From the NCBI GenBank assembly GCA_938010615.1, contig CALLUY010000093.1:1-64000 (forward strand): a stretch of DNA of 64,000 nt, given 5' to 3'. The position numbers were made by a program, and so were the translations under genes. Under the pieces are notes generated by a model that saw nothing but the letters and a program-made list of their open reading frames with translations, had not been told where the DNA came from and did not search any database. Each line of letters begins with the position of its first letter. The stretch's first letter is position 1. The stretch is from an uncultured Pirellulaceae bacterium (lineage in GTDB: Bacteria > Planctomycetota > Planctomycetia > Pirellulales > Pirellulaceae). Positions 18,937-36,161 of this stretch are shown in pieces.

Positions 18937-19210
18937 AATTTTTTGTTGATGCCGTTAGGCTTCTTTTTGTTTGAGACACAATTGCTTGACAGCCAGTAAA
19001 GCAACTGTGGTGCCAGTGAGTGCCAAAGCCGACAAACGTCGCAATCTCGTTGTTTTACGATCTGTTTTCTGCAAAAATCTGCTTCGCGACGTTGTCGAAA
19101 AAACACGTCGTTGTCGAAAACGAACGCAAGAGGCCTTTTTGCATCATCAGAATGTTTCGTTTGAGACACAAGGCACTTTATTTCCCGGGCGGCAAATTGG
19201 CCGAAATTCA

Positions 19211-20179
19211 ATGAGTGGACCTGTTTCAAAATTTCTCGAGCTTCACTTCAGGCATTTCAACGCACGAGAAACGCTCGACACGGCAAAATCGTGGTGCAAT
19301 TTCCTGGAAGATGGAGGGAAGATGCTGGTTAGTCTGGCCGGCGCCATGAGCACCGCTGAGCTGGGCGTGTCATTGGCCAGAATGATCCGTGAAGACAAAG
19401 TCCACGCAATCTCGTGCACCGGAGCCAACCTCGAAGAAGACGTGTTCAATCTGGTCGCGAAAAACGATTACCACATGGTGCCGAACTACCGCGACCTTTC
19501 TCCAGAAGACGAATTCGAACTTCTGCAAAAAGGATTCAATCGTGTCACCGACACATGCATTCCTGAAACCGTCATGCGGCACGTGGAACACAATTTTATC
19601 GGAGTCTGTGCTGAGAATGAAAAGTCCAACAAGCGAATGACTCCGGCGGAGATTTACTTCGAGCTATTCCGACAAGGTGTTTTGGAACCTCATTTTCAGA
19701 TCCCAAGAGAAGACTCCTGGCTGATTGCTGCTTGGGAGAAAGGCATTCCCGTCTACACGCCCGGCTTCGAAGATTCGACGCTGGGCAACATCTTCGCTGC
19801 AAGAGTCATCGAAAAGAAATTGTCGACTCACGATTCGATCAAATCGGGCACGGCTCAAATGCAAGAACTGGTCCAATGGTACGTTGAAACAGACAAGGAT
19901 TCACCGATTGGATTCTTTCAGATCGGTGGAGGGATCGCAGGCGACTTTGCAATTTGCGCCGTGCCATTGATCATTCAGGATCTACAGAAAGACATTAAAC
20001 TCTGGTCATGGTTTGCTCAGATTTCTGACTCGACCACATCCTACGGATCGTATTCAGGCGCTGTGCCCAACGAGAAAATCACGTGGTGCAAACTTTCGAA
20101 AGAGTGCCCTCGATTCATGATTAACTCGGACGCTTCCATCGTCGCGCCGCTGATCTTTGGATACGTTCTGGGCGACTAG
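19211..20179 (+). CDS. Deoxyhypusine synthase-like protein
   Basis: The 322-residue enzyme is of the bacterial deoxyhypusine synthase-like group. Markers are SLAGAMSTAELG, ISCTGANLEED, HMVPNYRDL, the C-terminal GGGIAGDFAI, SDSTTSYGSYSGAVPNEKITWCKL (the Lys after Trp-Cys aligns with the catalytic Lys of the family's WGK motif) and INSDASIVAPLIFGYVLG. Eukaryotic and archaeal members modify eIF5A using spermidine; bacterial members often make homospermidine or have unknown substrates. The ATG at 19211 matches the domain start; the frame is open further upstream but non-conserved-looking. A polyamine role is supported by an N-carbamoylputrescine amidase gene elsewhere in the window. Confidence 0.88.
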   Translation: MSGPVSKFLELHFRHFNARETLDTAKSWCNFLEDGGKMLVSLAGAMSTAELGVSLARMIREDKVHAISCTGANLEEDVFNLVAKNDYHMVPNYRDLSPEDEFELLQKGFNRVTDTCIPETVMRHVEHNFIGVCAENEKSNKRMTPAEIYFELFRQGVLEPHFQIPREDSWLIAAWEKGIPVYTPGFEDSTLGNIFAARVIEKKLSTHDSIKSGTAQMQELVQWYVETDKDSPIGFFQIGGGIAGDFAICAVPLIIQDLQKDIKLWSWFAQISDSTTSYGSYSGAVPNEKITWCKLSKECPRFMINSDASIVAPLIFGYVLGD

Positions 20180-20222: not shown

Positions 20223-23200
20223 CTACAACAGGTCATCCAAAGTCGTCCAGTCGACATCGTCTCGCGAATGAATCCGCTTGACCAACTCAACGGCGTCAGG
20301 TCGTTTCATCAACAAGCGAAACGCAACAGCCGCCAACGAGAGATCCTCTGCTTCGAAACATATCGCAAGCTTTCCGTCGGTTCCGTTAACCGCGGCGTTC
20401 TTGAGCCTGCACTTGCTTTCAATCATCTTCGGGATCTGACTTTCCTCTGAATTGGTCGGAAGCCCAACCAGCATACGCATTCGGCCGCCGCAATCATTGA
20501 CTAGCGGTTTCGCTTCATTGGATAACGAGTTGACCCACTGGATCACCTGTTCTGGCGCGACATCATTTTCGCGAATCAACTCTTCCATTGACAACGATTC
20601 GTTAACGCTACAGATGGCCTGCTGGGCTGCAGTTCGCAACTGGCTTGGCAAATTGTATCTAAGGATCGAATAGTCTGTCAGCACATGCTGAAAACCGCCT
20701 TCGGGCGCCACAAGTCCGTAGTACACTTGGCGTTCGATTTGCTCTGACATCGCCTCAAGCTTCGACTCAAGCTGTGCCAGCATGAGCTGCTGAGGATCGA
20801 ACAGGGCATCGCCATTTTCGCCTTCAAAACTTGTGCTTCGATTAGTGAAATCAGTCGTGATCATGTCAAGGTTTGTCTTCAGTTGCTCAATGACCGTGTT
20901 CACAGGTTGCAGATCATTCACAATGATTTGGATATACTCGCATGCAATTCGTTTTGCAAAATCGTCTTCGCGTTGAGCACACAGACGTGCCAACAATTCA
21001 GGCATCGATTCTTGAGGTGGCGTTTCCATTGCCTCTGGTGTCTGGCATGCAGCGATCGCATCCATGGTCGAATTGATCGATGCTCGCCCCTCAGCCAGTT
21101 CTTTCTCAACGTTGACTAGCCACTGTCTCATCGTCTGGCTCAGGTGCTCAACGGTTGCCTCGATCGACCCAAGCGCCAGAAACTCCAGATTGAGCATCGC
21201 GTAGCAGGCCTTGGAGATTGTGAGCATCCCTGAAATTGGGTCCGTGTTGAGGAACTGATCCATCGATTTTCGCAATCGAAGTTCGTAAGACTCTGGGCAC
21301 TCATACCCTTCCGAAGGTCCATAGACGTCGTCGAACATCGCTCTCAACTCTTCCTGAGAGCCCGCATGTTTATTCGCCAACGCAAGCAATTCTTCGCGAG
21401 ATTCAACACGCGAGCTGAGGATTTCGCCACGGACTTTCTTCTCAATGCCTGCTTCATCAACTTCCAATTGGGAAAGAATCCCTTTGGCAACTTCTATCGC
21501 ACCTTCTTTACCACTTTCGTCCAAACCGCTCCAGCGCTGAATCAACTTTTTGCAGAGCTGATCAATCAGTAGCCGTTGCATACTGACGTCGCCTGCTTTT
21601 GAAGTCGCAACACCAAATGTGCGAAGAGCAAAATGCTCCATCTCCTGCTCACTCTTGCGGCAAGCGTCAAAAAATTCGTTGCATCGTGTTGATGCAGAGA
21701 GCGAGATATACTCAGCTACAGAATCCAGTCTCGCGTCGAACTCCGACTGATTAAGATCATCTCCAAGCTCGGTGTAGTACGTATGCTCAAAAGGTGGCTC
21801 TTCGTCGAACTCCGGAATTCCGAGCGACGCGTCTCCCGGATAACCCTGCTCATTGAAGTGTCGCAATTCGGTCAGGAACGCAAAAGCATTGGCGGACGAC
21901 AGTCCCGGATCACGCATCCGTTGATAGTTTGAATGGAGCAGCACACCCGTCACAAAATCGTGTTTTAATCCCTTTTCACCAAGCAGCAATTTGACCGTGT
22001 AGGCCATGTCGAGCATCATCCCACTACCGACTCCACCGCTAATCGATGAGATGATGTAGATCCGCGGTGAGTTCGGATCGCCAGGATTCATCTTCAGCGC
22101 ATCGGCGGTTTTGCCAAGGTTTTCCGCTTTGATCAACTCACCGATTTCTTGCTCCAGTCGATCGCAAATGGATGAGAAATGGTCAGCGAACACAAGTCGC
22201 CCAAGTGGACGAAGGCCTTCGGTTTGCAACGTACGAGGAACATTGTAGATCCAGCGACGGCTTAACCAGCCAAGGTGAACTTCCGCGTTGGCACGATAGT
22301 CTTCTGGTTTTCGTAATGGAACCTCAAGCGTCTCCAGCGGGCTGACCGACTCGGTGAAGTTATTTTCAAGCTGTGCAAGATCCTTGCGATCTGAATCGAT
22401 AAAGATCGATCGAATGGAAGGAACATTTCGACTATCGCCGGCTCGCATCAAGAGCTTCGCTTTGAACTTCTCCCCTACCTTATTCGCAGTCTGTCCAATC
22501 GTAATGATCAACGTTGGCTGCACCGCCGCATCTTTCGCATCAATTTTCGGCGGCTCAACGGAAACAATACTGTTTGGCTGAAACGGGAGTGCGCGATCCG
22601 AAACCATTTCGGTGGCGTCAATTCCTTTGTTTTGATCCGGAGTGAATATAAGTGTTTCTGAGCCGTCTTCCGACTTTGTTTCAGAACGCTTGCGGGCGAT
22701 ACGAACGTTTCGTCGTTGCTTCTTGAGATCCTCGACGAAGTCGCTGCAAGACGGGTATCGAACAGCGGGATCCTTGGACAACGCACGTGCGACAGCTGCC
22801 TGATCACCTCGAGGAACCGGTCGAAGGTTCGGTTTTCCGTGCAAGTGTTGAGCAGCCAACTGAGCTGGAGTCGTACCTGGAAACGGACGAACACCCGAAA
22901 TCATTTCGCAGTACATGATCGCCAGAGAGTACTGGTCGCTACTGGCGGCTGGATGTCCATCAAAGAGCTCTGGCGCAGCATACGCAGGTGTCATGCCTTG
23001 CATCATCGATTGCGAAGCTGCGTGGAGATCCTTCATCAAGCCAAAGTCAGCAACCTTAACGTGGCCACTGACCAACAGAAGGTTTTCCGGCTTGATATCA
23101 AGGTGTTGCAGCGATTTTTCTTGCCACAGGAAATCAAGCGCGTTCGCAGCGTTACTCATGTGACGCAGCATTTCCTCGCGAGGAATCCCTGGCTCACCTT

Positions 23201-23516
23201 TGTTGACGAAAGTGTTGAAATGGTCTGCGAGGCTGGCATCTGCGAGCTCCGTAACCACGATCAGCTGACCTTCGAAAACTTCGATACGCTCAAGCGAAAG
23301 CAAAAACGGGTGCCTGAGAGACTTAACACGGTCAAGCGCTTTCAACTCAGACATCGCGCGTTTTTCATCATGAAAACCGTAAACGATTTTGAGTGCTTTT
23401 TTCAATCCGCCCGGCGCTTCGGCAGACCAGACTTCACCGAAGCCTCCGGAGCCAATTCGCTTTTCAAGTTTGTAGCCGAGAATATTCGCGGCGGGTTTAA
23501 TCGGTTTCGTCGACAC
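20223..23516 (-). CDS. Ser/Thr protein kinase fused to tubulin-like (Tubulin_2) domain
   Basis: The 1097-residue protein has an N-terminal Hanks-type kinase (about 12-270): glycine loop GSGGFGEVW at 22-30, Lys43, catalytic HLDIKPEN at 138-145 (HLD in place of HRD), DFG at 157-159 and APE near 181-183. After a linker, a large domain starts at about 334 (TLIITIGQTANKVGEKFKAK). It contains the tubulin/FtsZ-type nucleotide loop SGGVGSG at 493-499, followed by a helix, matching bacterial tubulin-like proteins of the Tubulin_2 type. The rest is helical. It probably couples phosphorylation to GTP-driven assembly. The AAA+ gene lies 80 bp upstream on the same strand; an FHA protein is divergent nearby. 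Confidence 0.88.
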   Translation of the reverse strand: MSTKPIKPAANILGYKLEKRIGSGGFGEVWSAEAPGGLKKALKIVYGFHDEKRAMSELKALDRVKSLRHPFLLSLERIEVFEGQLIVVTELADASLADHFNTFVNKGEPGIPREEMLRHMSNAANALDFLWQEKSLQHLDIKPENLLLVSGHVKVADFGLMKDLHAASQSMMQGMTPAYAAPELFDGHPAASSDQYSLAIMYCEMISGVRPFPGTTPAQLAAQHLHGKPNLRPVPRGDQAAVARALSKDPAVRYPSCSDFVEDLKKQRRNVRIARKRSETKSEDGSETLIFTPDQNKGIDATEMVSDRALPFQPNSIVSVEPPKIDAKDAAVQPTLIITIGQTANKVGEKFKAKLLMRAGDSRNVPSIRSIFIDSDRKDLAQLENNFTESVSPLETLEVPLRKPEDYRANAEVHLGWLSRRWIYNVPRTLQTEGLRPLGRLVFADHFSSICDRLEQEIGELIKAENLGKTADALKMNPGDPNSPRIYIISSISGGVGSGMMLDMAYTVKLLLGEKGLKHDFVTGVLLHSNYQRMRDPGLSSANAFAFLTELRHFNEQGYPGDASLGIPEFDEEPPFEHTYYTELGDDLNQSEFDARLDSVAEYISLSASTRCNEFFDACRKSEQEMEHFALRTFGVATSKAGDVSMQRLLIDQLCKKLIQRWSGLDESGKEGAIEVAKGILSQLEVDEAGIEKKVRGEILSSRVESREELLALANKHAGSQEELRAMFDDVYGPSEGYECPESYELRLRKSMDQFLNTDPISGMLTISKACYAMLNLEFLALGSIEATVEHLSQTMRQWLVNVEKELAEGRASINSTMDAIAACQTPEAMETPPQESMPELLARLCAQREDDFAKRIACEYIQIIVNDLQPVNTVIEQLKTNLDMITTDFTNRSTSFEGENGDALFDPQQLMLAQLESKLEAMSEQIERQVYYGLVAPEGGFQHVLTDYSILRYNLPSQLRTAAQQAICSVNESLSMEELIRENDVAPEQVIQWVNSLSNEAKPLVNDCGGRMRMLVGLPTNSEESQIPKMIESKCRLKNAAVNGTDGKLAICFEAEDLSLAAVAFRLLMKRPDAVELVKRIHSRDDVDWTTLDDLL

Positions 23517-23596
23517 GGGATAGCCTTAAGCCGGTGGGGTGGAATGTGGAAATGGGAGAACGGTTTTGAAACCGCTAGTGGAATTCGTGGTTGTGT

Positions 23597-24955
23597 TTAG
23601 CTGACGCCTTTAGCCATCGTTCGAGGTGCGCCTTCGAGTACTTCAGTGAAGTAACTTTTGGCGACTCGATCGAAATACTCAGGACGCAACTCCATCGGAA
23701 TGTCGTTGTAGACACAGAAGTTTCGAATTTGGCTAAGCAAGTCTCGTGGATGACAGCGTCGCAGACGTCTGTTGTGAGCCTTGTAGTGCGTGTTCAACAG
23801 GTACTCGACTGCATCTTCTTCGTACTCGCAGCCGAACTTCTCGCAGTAGATCCGAAACAGCAAGTGAAACTCTTTGCATGACGGATCTGCAATCTCGATC
23901 TTGTACGGAATGCGACGCATGAATGCTTCGTCCACCAATTGAGATGGTTCAAGATTCGTTGAGAAGATGATCAATTGCTCAAATGGAACCTGAATCTTCT
24001 TGCCTGTGGAGATCTGCAGAAAGTCGATACGACTCTCGAGTGGAACGATCCAGCGATTCAGAAGTTCTTGCGGCTCAACTCGCTGGCGACCAAAGTCATC
24101 AATCAACAAGCAGCCACAATTGCTTTTCATTTGCAGTGACGCTTCGCTGACGTTGCTGACTGGATCGTGCCGAATCTCCAACGAGTCCATCGTCATCTCG
24201 CCACCGACGACAACGGTCGGCCGTTTGATTTTGACCCAGCGTCGATCAAACGCAAAAGCGCTCATCATGCTCTCTCCGTCATCCTGTGCGCGATGATGAT
24301 AGGCCGCATCAAAGAGTTTGATAATTTGACCATCTTCAAAAATTGCGTTCGGAATCCAGATCTCCTGGCCAAAGCACTGTGTAATTCGCTGTGCAAGCGT
24401 GGACTTTCCGTTCCCGGGTTCGCCATACAGGAACAGTCCAGCGCCTGAATTGATCGCCGGTCCAAGACTCTCGAACAGCGTTTCGTTGATCGAAATATCG
24501 CGAAAAGCATTTCGCAGCTGCGAACGCTTCGGCGACTCAGCGCGAATCGTTTGAGCTTCTACGCTAAGCACGTAGTCCATCAACGGGACCGGTGCCGGTC
24601 CAACGTAAGAGCATGACTGACTATAGATGATTGCCCGATCACGCCCCTCTTCTGTCAGAGAGTAGTTGTAATCGTTTAGCGGAGCCGACCCTTTGTGAAC
24701 AATAAATCTGCGTGCACGCAACGTTTGGTACAGCTCTTCCAAAATCGTGAATGGGAGGCATAAATCGTTCGCCAGTTGTCGACCGCTGCTTACACCAACG
24801 TTCGAAAGTCGTTTGACAATCAAGGATTCAATCAGAGAGACCGGAAGCCCAGTATCTGAAATCGACGATGGCTCGCTAGGACGAAATGATTCGTCCGCCA
24901 TGATCGTAGCCAAAAGACTATTACTAAGTGAAGCGTTGGATAGTGTGTCAGTCAT
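23597..24955 (-). CDS. AAA+ ATPase with winged-helix-like N-terminal region
   Basis: The 452-residue protein has an N-terminal helical part (about 35-110) resembling a winged helix (LIVKRLSNVGVSSGRQLANDL). An AAA+ module follows with Walker A GEPGNGKS at 178-185, Walker B CLLIDDFG, sensor 1 IIFSTNLEP and an arginine-finger region FMRRIPYKIEI, then a helical lid. It resembles chaperone-like or MoxR-like regulatory ATPases of planctomycetes. The ATG at 24955 is preferred over an upstream GTG (25006), which would add 17 residues. It likely shares a transcript with the kinase-tubulin gene downstream and may remodel it. Confidence 0.85.
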   Translation of the reverse strand: MTDTLSNASLSNSLLATIMADESFRPSEPSSISDTGLPVSLIESLIVKRLSNVGVSSGRQLANDLCLPFTILEELYQTLRARRFIVHKGSAPLNDYNYSLTEEGRDRAIIYSQSCSYVGPAPVPLMDYVLSVEAQTIRAESPKRSQLRNAFRDISINETLFESLGPAINSGAGLFLYGEPGNGKSTLAQRITQCFGQEIWIPNAIFEDGQIIKLFDAAYHHRAQDDGESMMSAFAFDRRWVKIKRPTVVVGGEMTMDSLEIRHDPVSNVSEASLQMKSNCGCLLIDDFGRQRVEPQELLNRWIVPLESRIDFLQISTGKKIQVPFEQLIIFSTNLEPSQLVDEAFMRRIPYKIEIADPSCKEFHLLFRIYCEKFGCEYEEDAVEYLLNTHYKAHNRRLRRCHPRDLLSQIRNFCVYNDIPMELRPEYFDRVAKSYFTEVLEGAPRTMAKGVS

Positions 24956-25018
24956 ATTGCGGTTGTCTCGCAAATTAGTGATGTAAAGCCCGAAACAGTA
25001 GGTCACGATTAATCGCTG

Positions 25019-25237
25019 GTGCTCAAGAAATACGAGTTGTTTGGAAACAAACTTGTTGAACCAAAACTCGAAACAACCCTTACCACCGTCAATACTGGAT
25101 CGGTTGGCTGCCCCGCTCCCCCTGACTTGGGGAATTCTGGAATCCAGAAGAAATCAAACAACTCGAGCCCAAAGAGCAAGCTAGAAATCCTCGGTAGCAA
25201 TCTGCTGCGAAACCAAACCATGACTTTTCCTTTCTAG
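25019..25237 (+). CDS. Possible 72-residue small protein upstream of FHA-EAL gene
   Basis: A GTG-started frame runs between the divergent AAA+ gene and the FHA-EAL gene and stops 2 bp before the latter's ATG (TAG-CC-ATG), a spacing typical of translational coupling. The product is rich in Ser, Asn and Lys with a central GCPAPPDLG stretch and no hydrophobic segment. No ribosome-binding site is obvious. It could be a real small partner of the locus or a chance frame in the leader. Confidence 0.4.
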   Translation: MLKKYELFGNKLVEPKLETTLTTVNTGSVGCPAPPDLGNSGIQKKSNNSSPKSKLEILGSNLLRNQTMTFPF

Positions 25238-25239
25238 CC

Positions 25240-26427
25240 ATGACTACAAACGAACAAATTAACCAACCTGTACAAGATCCCGAGGTTTCCTCGTGCTGGT
25301 TTTTGTCTGGACAGACCAGCGAGTCGGAGCCGCTTCGCAAGTTCCCGATCCATTCAGACACGTTCACTGTTGGGCGACAGTCTGATTCATCATTGTGTTT
25401 GCCAACGGGTTGCATTTCGAAAAATCATGCTGAATTAACGTTTCGCGCAGATGGTGCACTGCTCCTGAATGATCTTGGAAGCACAAACGGCACATATATA
25501 AATGGCGAACCGATCAAGGGTGAGACTGTTCTCCACGAAGGCGACATCGTTCAGTTCGCCACCATCGTTTTTCGAATTGGCTCCGACAACGTCGAATCAG
25601 CCGGAAACACGATCGCCGAAGATGTTTGCGATCAAGCACTGGCGATAATCCAATTCGAGCGATTGATCAGCGACGGTGGTCTGTATCCACACTTTCAACC
25701 AATCGTCACCCTTAACGATCAAAAGCGAATCGGCTACGAAGTTCTCGGAAGAAGCCGCTTATTCGGATTGCAATCTCCGCATGAAATGTTCACGGCGGCC
25801 TCGCAACTGAATATGGAAGCTCAGCTCAGCGAGGCATTTCGGCATCGAGGCGTCGAAATTGGAACTGCTTTCGGATCAGAAATGAACCTGTTCGTTAACA
25901 CACATCCGAAAGAACTGGATCGTCCGGAATTCTACGATTCCCTGAGATCGCTTCGAGAAGCAGCTCCTGAGCAGTTGATCACTTTGGAAATTCATGAAGG
26001 AGCATCGACCAATCTAACCATGATGCGAGAGCTTTGTGCATTCTTGGCTGACTTCGACATCAAGCTTGCATTTGATGATTTCGGCGTCGGTCGTGCCCGA
26101 TTGGTTGAACTCGCAGAAGTTCGTCCGGACTTTCTGAAGTTCGACATGGGCCTTACGAAAAACATCGAAACGGCTCCACCACGCCGTCAGGAGCTAGTGG
26201 GCTTGTTCGCCACGATGGTCAACAGCCTTGGGATCAAAACCTTGGCCGAGGGCGTCGAAACGCGAGAGTGCCACGAAATCCTGGTCGAAATGGGATTTGA
26301 GCTTGGGCAGGGATATTATTACGGGCGTCCTTCACCAATCTCGAAATACGCTGATATGGGCGAACCAACGACCGATCCGAAAATTTCAAAAGAAAACGCA
26401 GACGAAGGCACGGTAGACTTCGTTTAG
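25240..26427 (+). CDS. FHA domain-EAL domain protein (putative c-di-GMP phosphodiesterase)
   Basis: The 395-residue protein has an FHA domain at about 30-115 (FTVGRQSDS with Arg46, SKNHAEL, DLGSTNGTYING), which binds phosphothreonine. An EAL domain spans about 145-365: EVL at 167-169 in place of EAL, Asn220, E250 in LEIHE, DD at 279-280 (AFDDFGVG), K300 and EGVE near 338. The metal and catalytic residues of active c-di-GMP phosphodiesterases appear present. It is divergent from the AAA+/kinase-tubulin pair, suggesting that the kinase's phosphorylation is read by the FHA and converted into a change of c-di-GMP. Confidence 0.9.
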   Translation: MTTNEQINQPVQDPEVSSCWFLSGQTSESEPLRKFPIHSDTFTVGRQSDSSLCLPTGCISKNHAELTFRADGALLLNDLGSTNGTYINGEPIKGETVLHEGDIVQFATIVFRIGSDNVESAGNTIAEDVCDQALAIIQFERLISDGGLYPHFQPIVTLNDQKRIGYEVLGRSRLFGLQSPHEMFTAASQLNMEAQLSEAFRHRGVEIGTAFGSEMNLFVNTHPKELDRPEFYDSLRSLREAAPEQLITLEIHEGASTNLTMMRELCAFLADFDIKLAFDDFGVGRARLVELAEVRPDFLKFDMGLTKNIETAPPRRQELVGLFATMVNSLGIKTLAEGVETRECHEILVEMGFELGQGYYYGRPSPISKYADMGEPTTDPKISKENADEGTVDFV

Positions 26428-29142: not shown

Positions 29143-29570
29143 TAGAGATCTCGTTCGAGGAAGGTGAACTATGGCACCTCATTTTTGCCAGTTCACGAGG
29201 TTAGCAGGACACCATAGCTCCAGTTTCTTGGGTTTTGTGGCAGGCGATTGAGCCGTTCTATTCGAAATCATGTCGCAAAAAGACGTATCGCGTCGCTCGC
29301 GTCCAATTGGCCTCGCCTAATTCAGCTCGACAGTTGCGGAACTTTACTTGGCCGAATAACCGGACAGACAGTTGGGCTATTTTTCTGATTTTGGCCGTTT
29401 CTCGCGTTGCCTTTTGCAGATTATGCACCCTTGAATTACTTTAGATGGACTAATCAATCCGATTTTCCGCTTGCTGCCTCAACGATGCAGTCGGCAAATC
29501 TATTCCATTCTGATTCATAGGCTGTGTCGGTCCTTTGCCGGCACGTTACTGAATGACCAAGGAACGTCTA
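29143..29570. other. Intergenic region upstream of giant repeat protein
   Basis: No gene is supported in these 428 bp. A hairpin GTGAACT/AGTTCAC with inner GGCA/TGCC is present at 29164-29196. The rest is likely leader and promoter for the large surface protein; no clear promoter box is called. Confidence 0.5.
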
Positions 29571-32500
29571 ATGAGTTCTAAGAGCACTCGCTTTCTATCA
29601 TTTCCACGATTCTCAAAAACGAACCTGCAGAAGGTTCTCTCCGCCAAGGCAATGCGGCGATCCAAGATTGAGAAGTACAACTACGACAGCCTTGAGCCAC
29701 GTCAGTTGCTGACGGCTGACATTGGGATCAATTTCACATCCGCTAATAACGGCAGCGGAGTAAGCAGCGGCGGCAATCCGCCCAACATTACCGCCGCTGT
29801 AGGCGAAAACCACATCGTTCAGTTTACAAACGATAGATACGCCATTTTTGCAAAAGCCGAAAATGGTCCTTTGCTTGAGGATGGGACGCTTGAAGAATTC
29901 TTCAATAATCCAGTAGACGATGAAGGGAACGCGGTTGCCCTGAGTCAACCACGCCTCGTATTCGACTCCGGATTTGATCGTTGGTACGTGACTGCCGTCG
30001 ACAATCAAGACTTGAATGACAATCTTCCATTGGTTCAGGGCAACCGAATTTTCCTTGCTGCGTCAAACACTCCCGACCCAACCGCATCTTGGAAAACAAA
30101 CGATATTCAGCTAGACGGAGGATCCTTAGACGCCGATGGCAACTTGGTGTTTCTATTCGGTACCGAACGCGTCAACCTGTCCGTCGATGAAGTTGGAATA
30201 TCGGTATCCGCACAAGAATTTACATTCTCAATTTTTGGGAAAACTCCCGTAGGCACAGCAGCGGTTGGCTTGCCCCAAGTTGCATTGTTTGGCGGAGCTA
30301 TTGAAACTAATCGCGCGGAAGGCGTTCGGGGCATTTCTAGCAACGACATTGGGGTCGAGATTCAATTCGGGCTCGACACGACAATTGAACCTCAGTCATT
30401 TCCAGTTACTTCTACTCAATCTGTGTTTTCACTCGCCATTGATGGGGAGGCAGATAGCGACACGTTTCCACGTGGTCGACAGGGCGATGAACTTGTCCTG
30501 ACGGAATTTACTCGTGACGGCACACCAAACGTTAACCTGAATTTTGACCAAGGCCAGAGCAAGCGAATCCCAATCGACTTCTATCGAGAACCGGACGTTG
30601 TCCGCCAACCGGGAGACATTATTCGAGACCGGGATTCTTCCCTTTTGAATGCTTCCGTTGCGCAGGAGGGACGATACCTATATGCGGCCCATTCCGTTCG
30701 TGACGTCATCACACTAGCTGACGGCACTCAGGCTGAAGGTCCGAATGCAGTCATTCGCTGGTATAAAGTTGACACAACTCCAGAGATTGACCCAGATACG
30801 GGCGCGGAACTTCTACTCGTCGATAGCGGAGTCATCCGTGCGGCAACCGATGACATTGACTTCATCGATCCTTCAATCGATGTCAGCCCCAATGGAACGG
30901 TAGCCATTGGCTACACAGCAACTGGGCTGAATCTATTTCCAAGTTCTTACGCCAGCATTGGTGTCCCAAGAGCTGGAGTTGGTTCGAAGCTGTTGTTCAA
31001 CGCCCCAACGGAACTCAGGGCAGGAGAGAGCCAATACATCGATACTGGAAATCATTTTTGGGGTCGCTACACAACGACCGTCAATGACCCATTCGATCCC
31101 AACAGTTTTTGGACGTTCCAGCAGTACACCGGCGACGACAACAATTGGGCCATTCAAACTACTCAGTTTGGACCGTCTCAGACGAACCCAGTCATCGATG
31201 TCATGCCGCCCAATCTCGACAACATCATCGAGGTCAATCAAGTTGGCGACAACATCGAGGTGGTCGTCGATGGAGTCATCGTTGGCGTTTATGACTCCGA
31301 TGGAATTGGCGAGCTTACCGTAAATGGCAACGGAGGAATGGATCAGTTCATTGTCAACGTCCCTAATCTCGATGCTCCCGAAATCACAGGCATCTACAAG
31401 CTTATTGGTGATGGTGATGACAAACTTCAACTAAACGTTTCCAGCGATACGACATGGGTGTTCGATGGGGCTAACGGCGTCGACATCAACAGTGGGGGCG
31501 GTGTTTTTGGATCAGGCATCATTGAATTCAAGTCTGGTGACGGGAATGATCGATTCGAATTCCCGACTTCCAACTACGATTTCCCGGTTTTCGGTGGTGC
31601 GGGCAATGATGTTTTCGTGGTTGAGCAAGACGTAACAGGAAACCTGCAACTCTTCGGTGAAGCTGGTGACGACGTCTACAACTTGCCCGCGACTTCATTC
31701 GCGGGAGTCACCATTTCAGACAGCATTGGATCGGAAAACGATCAACTGACCTCTACTGGAACCGATGGTCAGGACATCATCAATGTTGACGAAACGTCAA
31801 TCACGATCAATGGAATCACCGTGCCGTTCAATGCCGCTGCAACGGCGTGGGGGATCGAGACATTCGCAATTGATGCGAATGCTGACGACGACACTTTCAA
31901 CGTATCATCGACCACTCGCGGTATTGCTCTGTTCGGGCAGCGTGGTGAAGACACTTTCAATATCGATGAAACTTCCGTCATGACGGGAGCTGCCACATTG
32001 GTCATCAATGGCGGTGAAGGAAACAACTCTCTCAATGTAAGCCAAAATGGTGCTCTGATGCCGACGACTGTTGTGGTCGACGAAAGTTCGATCAGCAACA
32101 TGACCAGCGCGGAGATCAGCTTCACTGCAACTGGCGGGTTCTTCGCTGAGACGGCTACCAGCACAGGTATCACACTCTTGGGAAGCGACTCACGTGCGGA
32201 CACGTTTGAAATCGTCGGCGTCGCAGCTGGCAACGACCTAAACGTACTTGGACGCGCATTCGATGATCGTTTCATTTTTGAAAACACGATCAATGGAACG
32301 GCTGAATTGTTTGGCGGCCTCGGAAACGATCGCTACGAAACGAACGCAACATCGATTTTTGACGTTGTTGTAACGGATTCAGTCGATTCAGAAATGGACA
32401 CTTTTTACGTTGGCATGACTGCCGGCAATGACGTCATCGATGTCACCGCCACTGGCTATGTCTTCAACGGCGCTGCCTACCCGACTGCCGACGCTAACTT

Positions 32501-35500
32501 CACCGGCATCGAAGACTTTGTTCTCGATGGCCTCGGTGGCAACGATATTTTCAACATTGACCGCACAACCACCATCGCCCGATTCTTGGGTTCTGGTGGA
32601 GACGACATTTTCAATGTGACTGACTTGGCGGCATCCGCTGGCGAAACTGAAATCGATATCGATGGTGGTACCGGAGTCAACGAACTTAATGTGGCTCGCA
32701 ATGAGTTCACTGGTTCGCAAGCAATCGTCAACGACACAACCATTGCGGGAATGACGATCGCGACGATCAACTACAGCTTAATCAGCTTGGTTAATCTCGC
32801 AGGCTCAAGCAATGCGGATGACTTCGTTGTTCAAACACTTCTGCCCGGAACGTTGCTACGCATCAATGCTGGCGACGGCGACGACATGATGTTGGTGGAA
32901 CGAGCTGTGCTCGGTGATGTCGATCTGACCGGCGGCAATGGGAATGACGTTTTCCGTGTCGAAGTTCAAGGCGACAAAACACGATTGGTTCGAGTCATCG
33001 ATCCGTCCGCAATTCCCGGTGAAGATCGCGCGGAAGTTGTTTACACGCCAACTGCTGAAACCATCACACTCGATGGACGCACTGTTGGGCTTGGAAGTGA
33101 CATTGTCGACGTTGATCCGGACGTTGAAGTGCTTGCGTTGGAAGGACTCGGCGGTGACGACCGGTTCAACATCATCAATCCAGTTCACGCTCGCGTAGAG
33201 CTCTTCGGTCAAGCTGGCGATGACATCTACGACATTCAGGATCTGGCAGCGCTCTCTTCTGAGATTGCCATCTTCGACAGCGTCGGAGCCGAAAACGATA
33301 CGCTCTTGGTCACTGGTACTGTCAACCTTGACGAGTTCATCATTGAAGAAGATTCGATCACGATTAACGGGGTTGCTCTCACTTCGCCGGGTGGCGGAAC
33401 GATCATTGGCGTCGAAGGATTCACATTCGACGGCCTTGAAGCAGATGACATCTTCCGCATCAATTCAACGACCCCCGGATACAACTATCTTGGATCCGAA
33501 GGAAATGACCAGTTCTTTATCACTGACACCACCGTATCAACAGGAGCATCCAGTTTCTTCATTGATGGTGGAACAGGCAACAACGAAATGTTCGTAAGCC
33601 GGTCTGCCATCCTTGGTGGTGCAGCAGCCGGAACGGAAATTGTCATCGAAGACAACCTCATCGTTGGCATGACGATCGCAGACATCAATTACCGTGCAAC
33701 TGACGGAATCTTCTCGTTGATTGAGATGACGGGCACAAGCGGAACGACCGCTGGTGACGATGTTTACAACGACGTTTTCCGAGTCAACACATTGAACGAA
33801 GAAACGCTGCTAGACATCAGATCACTCGGCGGCGATGACATCATCGATGTCCGCGCTGCTGCAGCCGGCGATGTCACGATGGACGGTGGGCTAGGAGACG
33901 ACAGATTCCTAGTTGCATTGGGTGGATCAGTCGATCGACTGGTGACCGTTGATGATTCAGGGGTCAACGTCGGCTTCGACCGGTTGGATGTATTCTTCAG
34001 TGATGCAGACGAAACGATCAACGTGATCGAGAGTCTTCCAGGCGATCGAATTTCGTACGCCGTTGGAAACAGCTCAGTTGACTTCGATCCGACACTGGAA
34101 TCGCTCGCGTTACACGCTCTTGGTGGCGACGATCGCTATGTCGTATCTGGAACAACGACCGATGAACTAATTCTTGCCGGCGGCGACGGAGATGACACAT
34201 ACGACATCTCCAATGTCTTTGGTGACACAGCGGTTACGATCATCGACAGTGTCGATGCAGAGAACGATCGACTTACTGTGGCAGGCACAAACGATGGTGA
34301 CACGTTCGAGATCAACGAAAACAGTTTCCTGATCAACGGAAACGTAGTCATTGCCGCTGATGCAACCAATTCAAACATTGTTGGTATCGAATCACTGGAA
34401 ATTAATGGTCTCGATGGAGATGACACCTTCATCGTCAATTCGGCAACTCGCGGATTTAGCTTGTTGGGCGGAGCTGGCAACGATCAATTCATTATCAACG
34501 ACACGGCTGCTGACTCAGGTGGTGGCGATCTGGTGATTGATGGTGGAACGGGTGCCAACACGATGGACATTCAGCGCATCGCTGGACTGCCTGACTTTGC
34601 TGTTGTGCAAGAGACCTACATTCAAAATGTAGCCAAATCGACGATTCGATACTCAGCGACCGGCGGTAGTTTCACTGGCGGAAACGGTGGAATTACGATC
34701 CGTGGACTCGACGATGTAAACGATGCCTATCTGGTATTCGGCCTGCTCGCTGAGAACTCATTGGAGCTTCTTGGCGGCGGCGGAAATGACTACCATCGCA
34801 TCCTTGAGGAAGTCAATGGCGATGTCTGGATGGATGGAGCTCAAGGGCGTGATCGTTACGTATTTTTCCTAGATGAAGACAAGTCACGAAACCTTCGGGT
34901 TGAAGACTCTGGTGATGCAGGAGAGATCGACCGAATCAACACGTTCCTTGGACAGAACAGTGACAACATCGTACTTGAAGGCACAGAAGTCGCATTGATG
35001 AACGATCGAATGTCATTCCTTCCGACCATCGAGACGATTGAAATTTTGGCCGGAGATGGAGATGACCGAATTGAAGTTCGTCAGTTCGACGGAGTTCGAT
35101 TCTTGAGCGTCAAAGGCGAAGCCGGAAACGATGTGCTTAGTGTTACTGGTGCTGTTGGCGTCGAAAATATCTTCCTGTTCGGTGAAGATGGAAACGATAC
35201 CTTCGACCTTCAAGCAGCTTCGGAAACCGGATTCGTGCGAACGCTTGGCAACGATGGAGAAGACTTCTTCCGCGTTGGAGAAGACTACTACCGCAACACG
35301 GACATCAATGGCGGTGCTGGCGATGATCGATACGACCTCTCGTTCGCAGACCGCGGGCGACGAAGTTTGACCGTCGCTGATGCGGGCGGTGTTGACTCTG
35401 CCATCGTTCGTGCGACTGATGCAACAACCAGAATGACATTGCGTGCGTCTGGGATTAACTCGCCATTCCAATTGATTGGCACAACTCGCCAAATCGATTC

Positions 35501-36161
35501 GCTTGAGTTGATCGGAACCGAAGCACGAGACATTGTGACCATGTTCGCGGCTCCAGTCGTTGACATGTCGATCAACACGCTGACGGGTTCTGACCTTCTT
35601 ACCATCAACAGCAATAACGGTGCGGAAAACCTAAACATTAACTTGGGTGCCGAGCAGGACTTTGCGAACATCATCTCGACCGCTCCTGGAACAACGACAA
35701 CGTTGGACATGGGACGCGATGATGACTTGGTGAACCTTGGATCATCACTCGCAGCAGACAGCGGAAATCTTGACAGGCTTCAGGGAGCATTGAACATCGA
35801 GTTTGGTCAGGGAAGCGATCGTTTCTATGTGAACGACTCGCAATCGATGGGTGCCAATGGCTACACACTGACTGGAAGCCAAGTATCGAACGATGCTTCG
35901 GTACGAGCTCGTGGCTTCGCTGGGGTCAGCTACTCGGGTGCTGAGTTCCTTCAGGTAAGAGGAAACGCTCAGCTCAATCAGTTCACCGTGACACCAGATT
36001 CAGACGTCAGGTATTTGCTGGACGGCAACTTGCCACAGACAAACCGACTGACGATCACTGGCTCTGCCGACGGGCGTCAATTGTTCACCAACGGCGAGTT
36101 CGCTGGTATCTGGAGCTTTGATAGCTTCCGTGACGTTCAGTTCAAACAGTTCGCAATCTAG
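29571..36161 (+). CDS. Giant acidic repeat surface protein (RTX/calcium-repeat-like)
   Basis: The 2196-residue protein has a basic N-terminus followed by SLEPRQLLTAD (about 40-50), the planctomycete export motif. A beta-rich domain spans about 55-540, and then come many GGxGxD-like nonapeptide pieces (GGAGNDVF, GGNGNDVF, GDGDD, GEAGDD) arranged in at least four imperfect long units. Each unit begins with a DS-x2-3-END-x-L-x2-TGT pattern near 31720, 32380, 33278 and 34240. Such Asp/Gly repeats bind calcium in RTX proteins. The ATG at 29571 follows an AAGGAA box by about 8 bp; an ATG at 29553 is possible. A strong terminator follows. The facing M50/HlyD-like genes may export or process it. Confidence 0.88.
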   Translation: MSSKSTRFLSFPRFSKTNLQKVLSAKAMRRSKIEKYNYDSLEPRQLLTADIGINFTSANNGSGVSSGGNPPNITAAVGENHIVQFTNDRYAIFAKAENGPLLEDGTLEEFFNNPVDDEGNAVALSQPRLVFDSGFDRWYVTAVDNQDLNDNLPLVQGNRIFLAASNTPDPTASWKTNDIQLDGGSLDADGNLVFLFGTERVNLSVDEVGISVSAQEFTFSIFGKTPVGTAAVGLPQVALFGGAIETNRAEGVRGISSNDIGVEIQFGLDTTIEPQSFPVTSTQSVFSLAIDGEADSDTFPRGRQGDELVLTEFTRDGTPNVNLNFDQGQSKRIPIDFYREPDVVRQPGDIIRDRDSSLLNASVAQEGRYLYAAHSVRDVITLADGTQAEGPNAVIRWYKVDTTPEIDPDTGAELLLVDSGVIRAATDDIDFIDPSIDVSPNGTVAIGYTATGLNLFPSSYASIGVPRAGVGSKLLFNAPTELRAGESQYIDTGNHFWGRYTTTVNDPFDPNSFWTFQQYTGDDNNWAIQTTQFGPSQTNPVIDVMPPNLDNIIEVNQVGDNIEVVVDGVIVGVYDSDGIGELTVNGNGGMDQFIVNVPNLDAPEITGIYKLIGDGDDKLQLNVSSDTTWVFDGANGVDINSGGGVFGSGIIEFKSGDGNDRFEFPTSNYDFPVFGGAGNDVFVVEQDVTGNLQLFGEAGDDVYNLPATSFAGVTISDSIGSENDQLTSTGTDGQDIINVDETSITINGITVPFNAAATAWGIETFAIDANADDDTFNVSSTTRGIALFGQRGEDTFNIDETSVMTGAATLVINGGEGNNSLNVSQNGALMPTTVVVDESSISNMTSAEISFTATGGFFAETATSTGITLLGSDSRADTFEIVGVAAGNDLNVLGRAFDDRFIFENTINGTAELFGGLGNDRYETNATSIFDVVVTDSVDSEMDTFYVGMTAGNDVIDVTATGYVFNGAAYPTADANFTGIEDFVLDGLGGNDIFNIDRTTTIARFLGSGGDDIFNVTDLAASAGETEIDIDGGTGVNELNVARNEFTGSQAIVNDTTIAGMTIATINYSLISLVNLAGSSNADDFVVQTLLPGTLLRINAGDGDDMMLVERAVLGDVDLTGGNGNDVFRVEVQGDKTRLVRVIDPSAIPGEDRAEVVYTPTAETITLDGRTVGLGSDIVDVDPDVEVLALEGLGGDDRFNIINPVHARVELFGQAGDDIYDIQDLAALSSEIAIFDSVGAENDTLLVTGTVNLDEFIIEEDSITINGVALTSPGGGTIIGVEGFTFDGLEADDIFRINSTTPGYNYLGSEGNDQFFITDTTVSTGASSFFIDGGTGNNEMFVSRSAILGGAAAGTEIVIEDNLIVGMTIADINYRATDGIFSLIEMTGTSGTTAGDDVYNDVFRVNTLNEETLLDIRSLGGDDIIDVRAAAAGDVTMDGGLGDDRFLVALGGSVDRLVTVDDSGVNVGFDRLDVFFSDADETINVIESLPGDRISYAVGNSSVDFDPTLESLALHALGGDDRYVVSGTTTDELILAGGDGDDTYDISNVFGDTAVTIIDSVDAENDRLTVAGTNDGDTFEINENSFLINGNVVIAADATNSNIVGIESLEINGLDGDDTFIVNSATRGFSLLGGAGNDQFIINDTAADSGGGDLVIDGGTGANTMDIQRIAGLPDFAVVQETYIQNVAKSTIRYSATGGSFTGGNGGITIRGLDDVNDAYLVFGLLAENSLELLGGGGNDYHRILEEVNGDVWMDGAQGRDRYVFFLDEDKSRNLRVEDSGDAGEIDRINTFLGQNSDNIVLEGTEVALMNDRMSFLPTIETIEILAGDGDDRIEVRQFDGVRFLSVKGEAGNDVLSVTGAVGVENIFLFGEDGNDTFDLQAASETGFVRTLGNDGEDFFRVGEDYYRNTDINGGAGDDRYDLSFADRGRRSLTVADAGGVDSAIVRATDATTRMTLRASGINSPFQLIGTTRQIDSLELIGTEARDIVTMFAAPVVDMSINTLTGSDLLTINSNNGAENLNINLGAEQDFANIISTAPGTTTTLDMGRDDDLVNLGSSLAADSGNLDRLQGALNIEFGQGSDRFYVNDSQSMGANGYTLTGSQVSNDASVRARGFAGVSYSGAEFLQVRGNAQLNQFTVTPDSDVRYLLDGNLPQTNRLTITGSADGRQLFTNGEFAGIWSFDSFRDVQFKQFAI

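Follow-up and report, generated by a model that had tools for sequence, protein, structure and literature searches.

A conserved planctomycete gene neighborhood encoding a kinase-tubulin fusion, an AAA+ ATPase and an FHA-EAL protein

Genes and predicted domains at the locus

The window, i.e., the whole stretch of DNA analyzed here, comprises 64,000 nt (positions 1–64,000, forward strand, of contig CALLUY010000093.1, assembly GCA_938010615.1) from an uncultured Pirellulaceae bacterium. The initial annotation had described (i) a protein, here called KT, that couples a Ser/Thr kinase with a tubulin-like domain carrying an SGGVGSG loop; (ii) a neighboring AAA+ ATPase; and (iii) a divergently encoded FHA-EAL protein. 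Open reading frames and Pfam confirmed the three genes at the positions it had assigned, with PF00069 and PF13809 over cut-off for KT, PF00498 and PF00563 for FHA-EAL, and fold matches for the AAA+ protein. The features are as follows:

20223..23516, minus strand: KT, Ser/Thr kinase with a putatively split tubulin-like (FtsZl1/Tubulin_2) domain, 1097 aa (Pfam PF00069, PF13809)
22698..23474, minus strand: KT kinase domain, aa 15–273, non-RD type (HLD), with K43, D140, K142, N145 and D157 present
22644..22658, minus strand: ETLIF, KT aa 287–291, the window's copy of D/E-T-x-V-F, with a candidate phosphothreonine (linker scan)
21528..22526, minus strand: predicted nucleotide-binding part of the tubulin fold, together with the first part of its C-terminal domain, KT aa 331–663 (assigned S1–H9 in the model)
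22020..22040, minus strand: T4 loop SGGVGSG, KT aa 493–499 (G494 in 57 of 57 and G495 in 56 of 57 relatives)
20511..21518, minus strand: predicted helical insertion of about 340 residues, KT aa 667–1002, poorly conserved (model secondary structure)
20226..20489, minus strand: predicted remaining part of the C-terminal domain of the tubulin fold, KT aa 1010–1097 (assigned S8-H10-S9-S10 in the model)
23597..25006, minus strand: AAA+ ATPase with a winged-helix-like N-terminal domain, 469 aa as listed (weak Pfam, fold matches)
25240..26427, plus strand: 395-aa FHA-EAL protein, in divergent orientation to AAA and KT (Pfam)
25366..25557, plus strand: FHA domain, aa 43–106, with G45, R46, S60, H63 and N83 (invariant in 81 of 81 relatives)
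25654..26331, plus strand: EAL domain, aa 139–364, with E167, N220, E250, D279, D280, K300, E337 and Q357 (catalytic-residue check)

In KT, a cytoplasmic kinase is joined to a domain of the tubulin superfamily. The kinase matches PF00069 over aa 15–273 (E 7.5e-32), and K43, H138, L139, K142 and N145 are kept in 57/57 KT relatives, with D140 and D157 in 56/57. Aa 336–659 match PF13809 (Tubulin_2; E 4.2e-24; 85.9 bits against a cut-off of 27), and the canonical Tubulin model PF00091 reaches 15.7 bits, under its cut-off of 33. Across the 57 relatives the majority form of the T4 loop is S-G-G-T-G-S-G, and the window's SGGVGSG agrees with the loop given for FtsZl1 proteins, GGGTG(S/T)G or a close variant. 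No convincing transmembrane segment was detected in KT, the AAA+ protein or FHA-EAL (highest 19-residue hydropathy 1.33). Identification of KT as the PASTA kinase PknB was rejected (NF033483, 98.5 bits against a curated cut-off of 450), the NCBIfam kinase matches being generic and below cut-off; a search of the KT sequence profile against the PDB returned mainly chance coiled-coil matches and a marginal match to CetZ, and KT patterns had no match among viral contigs.

A structure prediction of the C-terminal domain, named as a check by the initial annotation, returned a tubulin fold. The AlphaFold model of KT 331–1097, built from 49 sequences, has a mean pLDDT of 87.6 and a pTM of 0.82; its top Foldseek matches in the PDB are all CetZ, FtsZ and tubulins, and a second structural aligner (VIA) gave Z 27.2 to CetZ 3zid over 301 residues at 3.8 Å. 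That alignment pairs model residues 2–747 with residues 1–340 of the 3zid chain, and the structural alignments reach model residues 747–767. The model suggests a complete two-domain tubulin fold that is interrupted by an inserted helical region of roughly 340 residues, whose helices lie at model residues 337–672, as fits the extended helical region past the tubulin core that characterizes FtsZl1. As judged from model secondary structure and alignment ranges rather than residue-level alignments, S1–H9 would correspond to KT 331–663, followed by the insertion and then by S8, H10, S9 and S10 at KT 1012–1059. Since no NxDxxD-like T7 motif was recognized in the alignment around model residues 275–290, and the catalytic residues of an FtsZ-like T7 loop thus went unrecognized, GTP hydrolysis and polymerization by KT are doubtful.

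The AAA+ gene lies upstream of KT on the same strand, with an intergenic gap of 80 bp. Pfam returned only weak AAA matches for its product, while fold comparison gave clear AAA+ matches. Homologs favor a start at ATG 24955, which is probably the true one, rather than at GTG 25006; it lies 17 codons inside the listed frame. The model is of moderate quality (mean pLDDT 70.7), with a confident winged-helix-like N-terminal part. As the fold matches leave the clade of the AAA+ core unsettled and the model is only moderate, we do not claim a spastin-like severing role; the profile matches to spastin, VPS4 and p97 were weak and short, many of them over Walker A. A paralog with about 50% identity (L232–L240, L246) occurs in most genomes of the family, including some that lack KT, and its loci showed no conserved neighbors.

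The divergent gene encodes clear FHA (PF00498, E 3e-18) and EAL (PF00563, E 6.6e-43) domains. The window's own genome contains a second FHA-EAL-like gene (G000:C47:5454-6515), 42% identical to the window's FHA-EAL. A deoxyhypusine-synthase-like gene (18971–20179; PF01916, E 2.3e-39), found in only four neighborhoods, is convergent with KT, and positions 29553–36161 form a single open frame for a repetitive protein of 2202 aa.

Distribution of the neighborhood and related systems

The family sample consisted of 149 genomes, one per species, 106 of them high-quality and many of them metagenome bins. Protein searches identified KT in 99 of the 149 (72/106 high-quality), with one KT per genome; two short KT fragments were left out afterwards, giving 97 KT genomes for the co-occurrence counts. 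An AAA ortholog is present in 92 family genomes, 91 of the 97 with KT as opposed to 1 of the 52 without it (Fisher 7e-32, a statistic that ignores phylogeny); as orthologs were told apart from paralogs by their scores and by whether they lay next to KT, this count leans slightly towards linkage. Full-type FHA-EAL occurs in 87 family genomes, in 81 of them together with KT. The AAA gene lies within 6 kb of KT in 79/97 genomes, an FHA-EAL gene of either kind is near KT in 73/97, and at least one of the two adjoins KT in 86/97. Thus the conservation survey proposed with the initial annotation found the neighborhood to be widely conserved, both in the family and in the wider class.

Genes in 60 neighborhoods, called by a simple and crude script, were clustered with those of the window: the KT cluster was represented in 59 loci, FHA-EAL in 47 and AAA in 45, and no other neighboring family recurred in more than 10. 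Genes resembling deoxyhypusine synthase and methyltransferases, each present at only 4 to 6 loci, were excluded from the module.

In the family, the commonest layout is FHA-EAL divergent from AAA, followed by KT. Beyond it, Tubulin_2 proteins were found in 56/127 high-quality genomes of the order sample, 82/176 of the class sample and 6/113 of the phylum sample. The module occurs across the class Planctomycetia in several gene orders, including FHA-EAL, AAA and KT in one direction (L125–L128, L150) and AAA, KT, FHA-EAL (L099, L143, L145), and among 80 loci from named genomes an FHA protein is encoded nearby in 70 and AAA in 55. Pairwise distances of KT, AAA and FHA-EAL correlate (r 0.83–0.86, 36 loci).

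Two families, f23 and f26, have KT relatives, often several, that lack AAA and FHA-EAL neighbors; a search of 15 f23/f26 genomes revealed no FHA-EAL fusion. A tree of 114 KT proteins places f23, f26 and f24 together on one side (support 92). Tandem pairs of f23 KT relatives without these neighbors were observed at L113, L116, L118 and L120. A contig titled Candidatus Nealsonbacteria (L195) carries a planctomycete-type KT with 38% identity, probably a binning error.

The initial annotation knew of no described pathway with this combination, and the three-gene association as a whole indeed appears undescribed: a literature search covering openly accessible, published papers returned no report of a KT/AAA+/FHA-EAL module. 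The kinase-tubulin fusion, in contrast, has been known since 2010, when Makarova and Koonin defined the FtsZl1 family and, in the main text, noted four planctomycete members with an N-terminal kinase (PMC2875224); the fusion was mentioned again in a later paper (PMC9871819). A 2024 kinase survey listed tubulin-like domains as the commonest among those exclusive to cytoplasmic kinases, in Planctomycetota (PMC11032199). KT, with its kinase, tubulin-like core, coiled-coil region and C-terminal part, is a member of FtsZl1 as described in that main text, which names no FHA, EAL or such AAA+ partner. That text also describes the FtsZl1 C-terminus as showing no similarity to the FtsZ-tubulin C-terminal domain, whereas our model places the end of KT in that domain; if the model is right, it corrects the view of FtsZl1 proteins as lacking it.

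According to the same source, vWA, GTPase and OmpA partners are frequent but not universal in FtsZl1 operons (PMC2875224, main text); they were absent among the scanned neighbors in the window, and no such family recurred across the 60 loci. The GTPase-tubulin-HSP70 conflict systems of Kaur et al. 2020 (PMC7159879) resemble the KT locus in having a tubulin-family protein with a helical or coiled-coil C-terminus and a conserved neighborhood. Their partners, however, are GTPases, HSP70 and vWA proteins, and neither GTPase nor HSP70 genes recur beside KT, among the window's neighbors or in the 60 loci.

FHA-EAL subtypes and a candidate docking motif

The five phosphothreonine-binding residues of the FHA domain (G, R, S, H and N) are invariant in 81/81 FHA-EAL proteins. 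These proteins fall into two types: type A, 57 proteins that lack a GGDEF-CBS neighbor, and type B, 24 proteins with an adjoining REC-GGDEF-CBS gene. Type A loci also carry AAA. All eight catalytic residues of the EAL domain are present in 54/57 type A proteins but in 0/24 type B proteins, which retain at most five. The window's locus is type A, and its EAL domain keeps 8/8 metal, substrate and catalytic residues. Type A EAL domains thus have a putatively phosphodiesterase-competent active site and are predicted to hydrolyze c-di-GMP. In the type B neighbor the GGDEF motif is degraded as well, and the CBS domains are of the ligand-binding kind.

Because the EAL catalytic residues have been lost in type B, c-di-GMP hydrolysis cannot be the invariant function of the module, and, since FHA stays intact where EAL and GGDEF have degenerated, the constant element is kinase, tubulin and FHA. 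Judged by their motifs, the attached theme is c-di-GMP, with either its enzymes or derivatives of these that have become inactive. At three loci (L126, L127, L150) a protein with an intact GGDEF motif is encoded directly upstream of FHA-EAL; these genes and the GGDEF-family neighbor of type B are independent ties to c-di-GMP. In the 114-protein KT tree types A and B are clustered, yet several changes are needed. Both types coexist in G171 (L104, L147) and G194 (L145, L146), the type B KT being the shorter in each. At L109 a degenerate REC-GGDEF-CBS gene adjoins another REC-GGDEF-CBS gene (L109:15000-16694), whose GGEEF motif is intact.

The linker between the kinase and tubulin-like parts of KT, about 76 aa long, is variable and cannot be aligned. 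We therefore scanned 131 linkers sharing no 8-mer for every residue at positions −4 to +5 of each threonine. The top signal was phenylalanine at +3 (39 against 12.7 expected, p 1.4e-9), followed, in order, by D at −1, Q at +1 and V at +2, while the serine-centered control yielded 17 against 16.1 expected for F at +3. The signal persisted when the commonest variant and the families lacking FHA were removed (24 against 7.6, p 1.4e-6). T..F is also found in 4/20 linkers of the FHA-less KT families, as compared with 32/111 others, so this element of the motif fails to separate the two groups. A narrow pattern drawn up by eye, [SDENG][DEN]T[KRQ][TS], was dropped after scoring 0/77 in a hold-out, and the analysis relied on broader patterns and on the unbiased scan.

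FHA domains recognize phosphothreonine but not phosphoserine and show a preference at +3; the threonine-specific enrichment at +3 therefore fits FHA docking on KT itself. We regard D/E-T-x-V-F, refined after the sequences had been viewed and scored on the same data from linkers that share ancestry, as a candidate FHA docking phosphosite, a lead and not a demonstration. Kinase-to-FHA relays are familiar from GarA/OdhI and from type VI secretion Fha. The window's FHA domain matches both GarA and OdhI by sequence, and here too the kinase and the FHA protein are encoded together; unlike in GarA/OdhI and type VI Fha, the FHA domain is fused to EAL, and the kinase has a tubulin-like fusion partner.

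A proposed mechanism and its alternatives

Linkage, co-occurrence, adjacency through rearrangement, correlated distances, kept residues, the linker signal and the predicted fold lead us to favor, somewhat short of an even chance, the view that the three genes constitute one functional module, in which a self-assembling kinase scaffold recruits FHA-EAL and the AAA+ protein acts as a remodeler. KT would bind GTP and self-associate, raising the local kinase concentration; the kinase would phosphorylate the threonine of D/E-T-x-V-F in its own disordered linker; and the FHA domain, as the motif and the invariant FHA residues suggest, would dock on the resulting phosphothreonine. In type A, the docked EAL domain, with its complete active site, may then hydrolyze c-di-GMP locally, whereas in type B the docked FHA-EAL and the neighboring degenerate GGDEF-CBS protein might serve as ligand sensors, not enzymes. 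The AAA+ protein would remodel or disassemble the KT complex. The route from kinase through FHA to c-di-GMP that the initial annotation had envisaged therefore retains an intact kinase, an intact FHA domain, the type A EAL residues and the threonine motif of the linker, but fails to extend to the degenerate EAL of type B. A bolder version, in which a tubulin-superfamily polymer with its own kinase uses phosphothreonine docking to confine c-di-GMP turnover to particular sites within bacteria lacking FtsZ and is recycled by an AAA+ motor, forming a signaling cytoskeleton, we consider doubtful.

If this reading is true, the module would bring together, in bacteria whose FtsZ-less division is unexplained, three systems usually studied separately: c-di-GMP, Ser/Thr phosphorylation and a relative of tubulin. 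Its partners are defined, it offers a candidate phosphosite, and EAL occurs naturally in active and inactive subtypes, so that the mechanism can be tested in cultured strains, among which Adhaeretor mobilis HG15A2 (L224) and Lacipirellula limnantheis I41 (L212) carry the module.

The type B proteins also lend themselves to another interpretation, in which EAL is mainly a c-di-GMP receptor and FHA-EAL controls KT assembly or the kinase, so that information flows from c-di-GMP to the cytoskeleton and not the reverse. That EAL is incomplete in all 24 of them while the FHA residues are invariant, that the neighboring GGDEF is likewise degenerate and that its CBS domains could bind ligands all accord with this view; as the complete site in nearly all type A proteins, the window's included, is hard to explain without catalysis, we judge it unlikely to hold. 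Membership of KT in FtsZl1 and the planctomycete kinase fusions noted in the main text of PMC2875224, together with the heavily invaginated membranes of planctomycetes (PMC8567305), recall the proposal of Makarova and Koonin that FtsZl1 operons constitute a membrane-remodeling or vesicle system. Such a role seems improbable here, given that the vWA, GTPase and OmpA partners underlying their proposal are not recurrent and none of the three proteins has a convincing transmembrane segment.

In 60 family genomes no protein exceeded the cut-off for PF00091, compared with 13/14 controls, which leaves KT as the sole tubulin relative identified in these genomes, as might be expected of an FtsZ replacement in cell division. 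Yet about one third of the high-quality family genomes lack KT, Tubulin_2 is sparse in the phylum sample, and division continues, so that KT cannot be a universal FtsZ substitute or division protein; we give this reading hardly any credence. A role in conflict or defense, on the lines of the GTPase-tubulin-HSP70 and MoxR-vWA systems that Kaur and colleagues described, in which tubulin-family and AAA+ parts are also present (PMC7159879), deserves only slight credence. PADLOC kinase models do match KT, but over the generic kinase domain only, and no variable effectors recur at the loci; the family has a single KT in each genome, and the distances of the three proteins are correlated, as in vertical inheritance.
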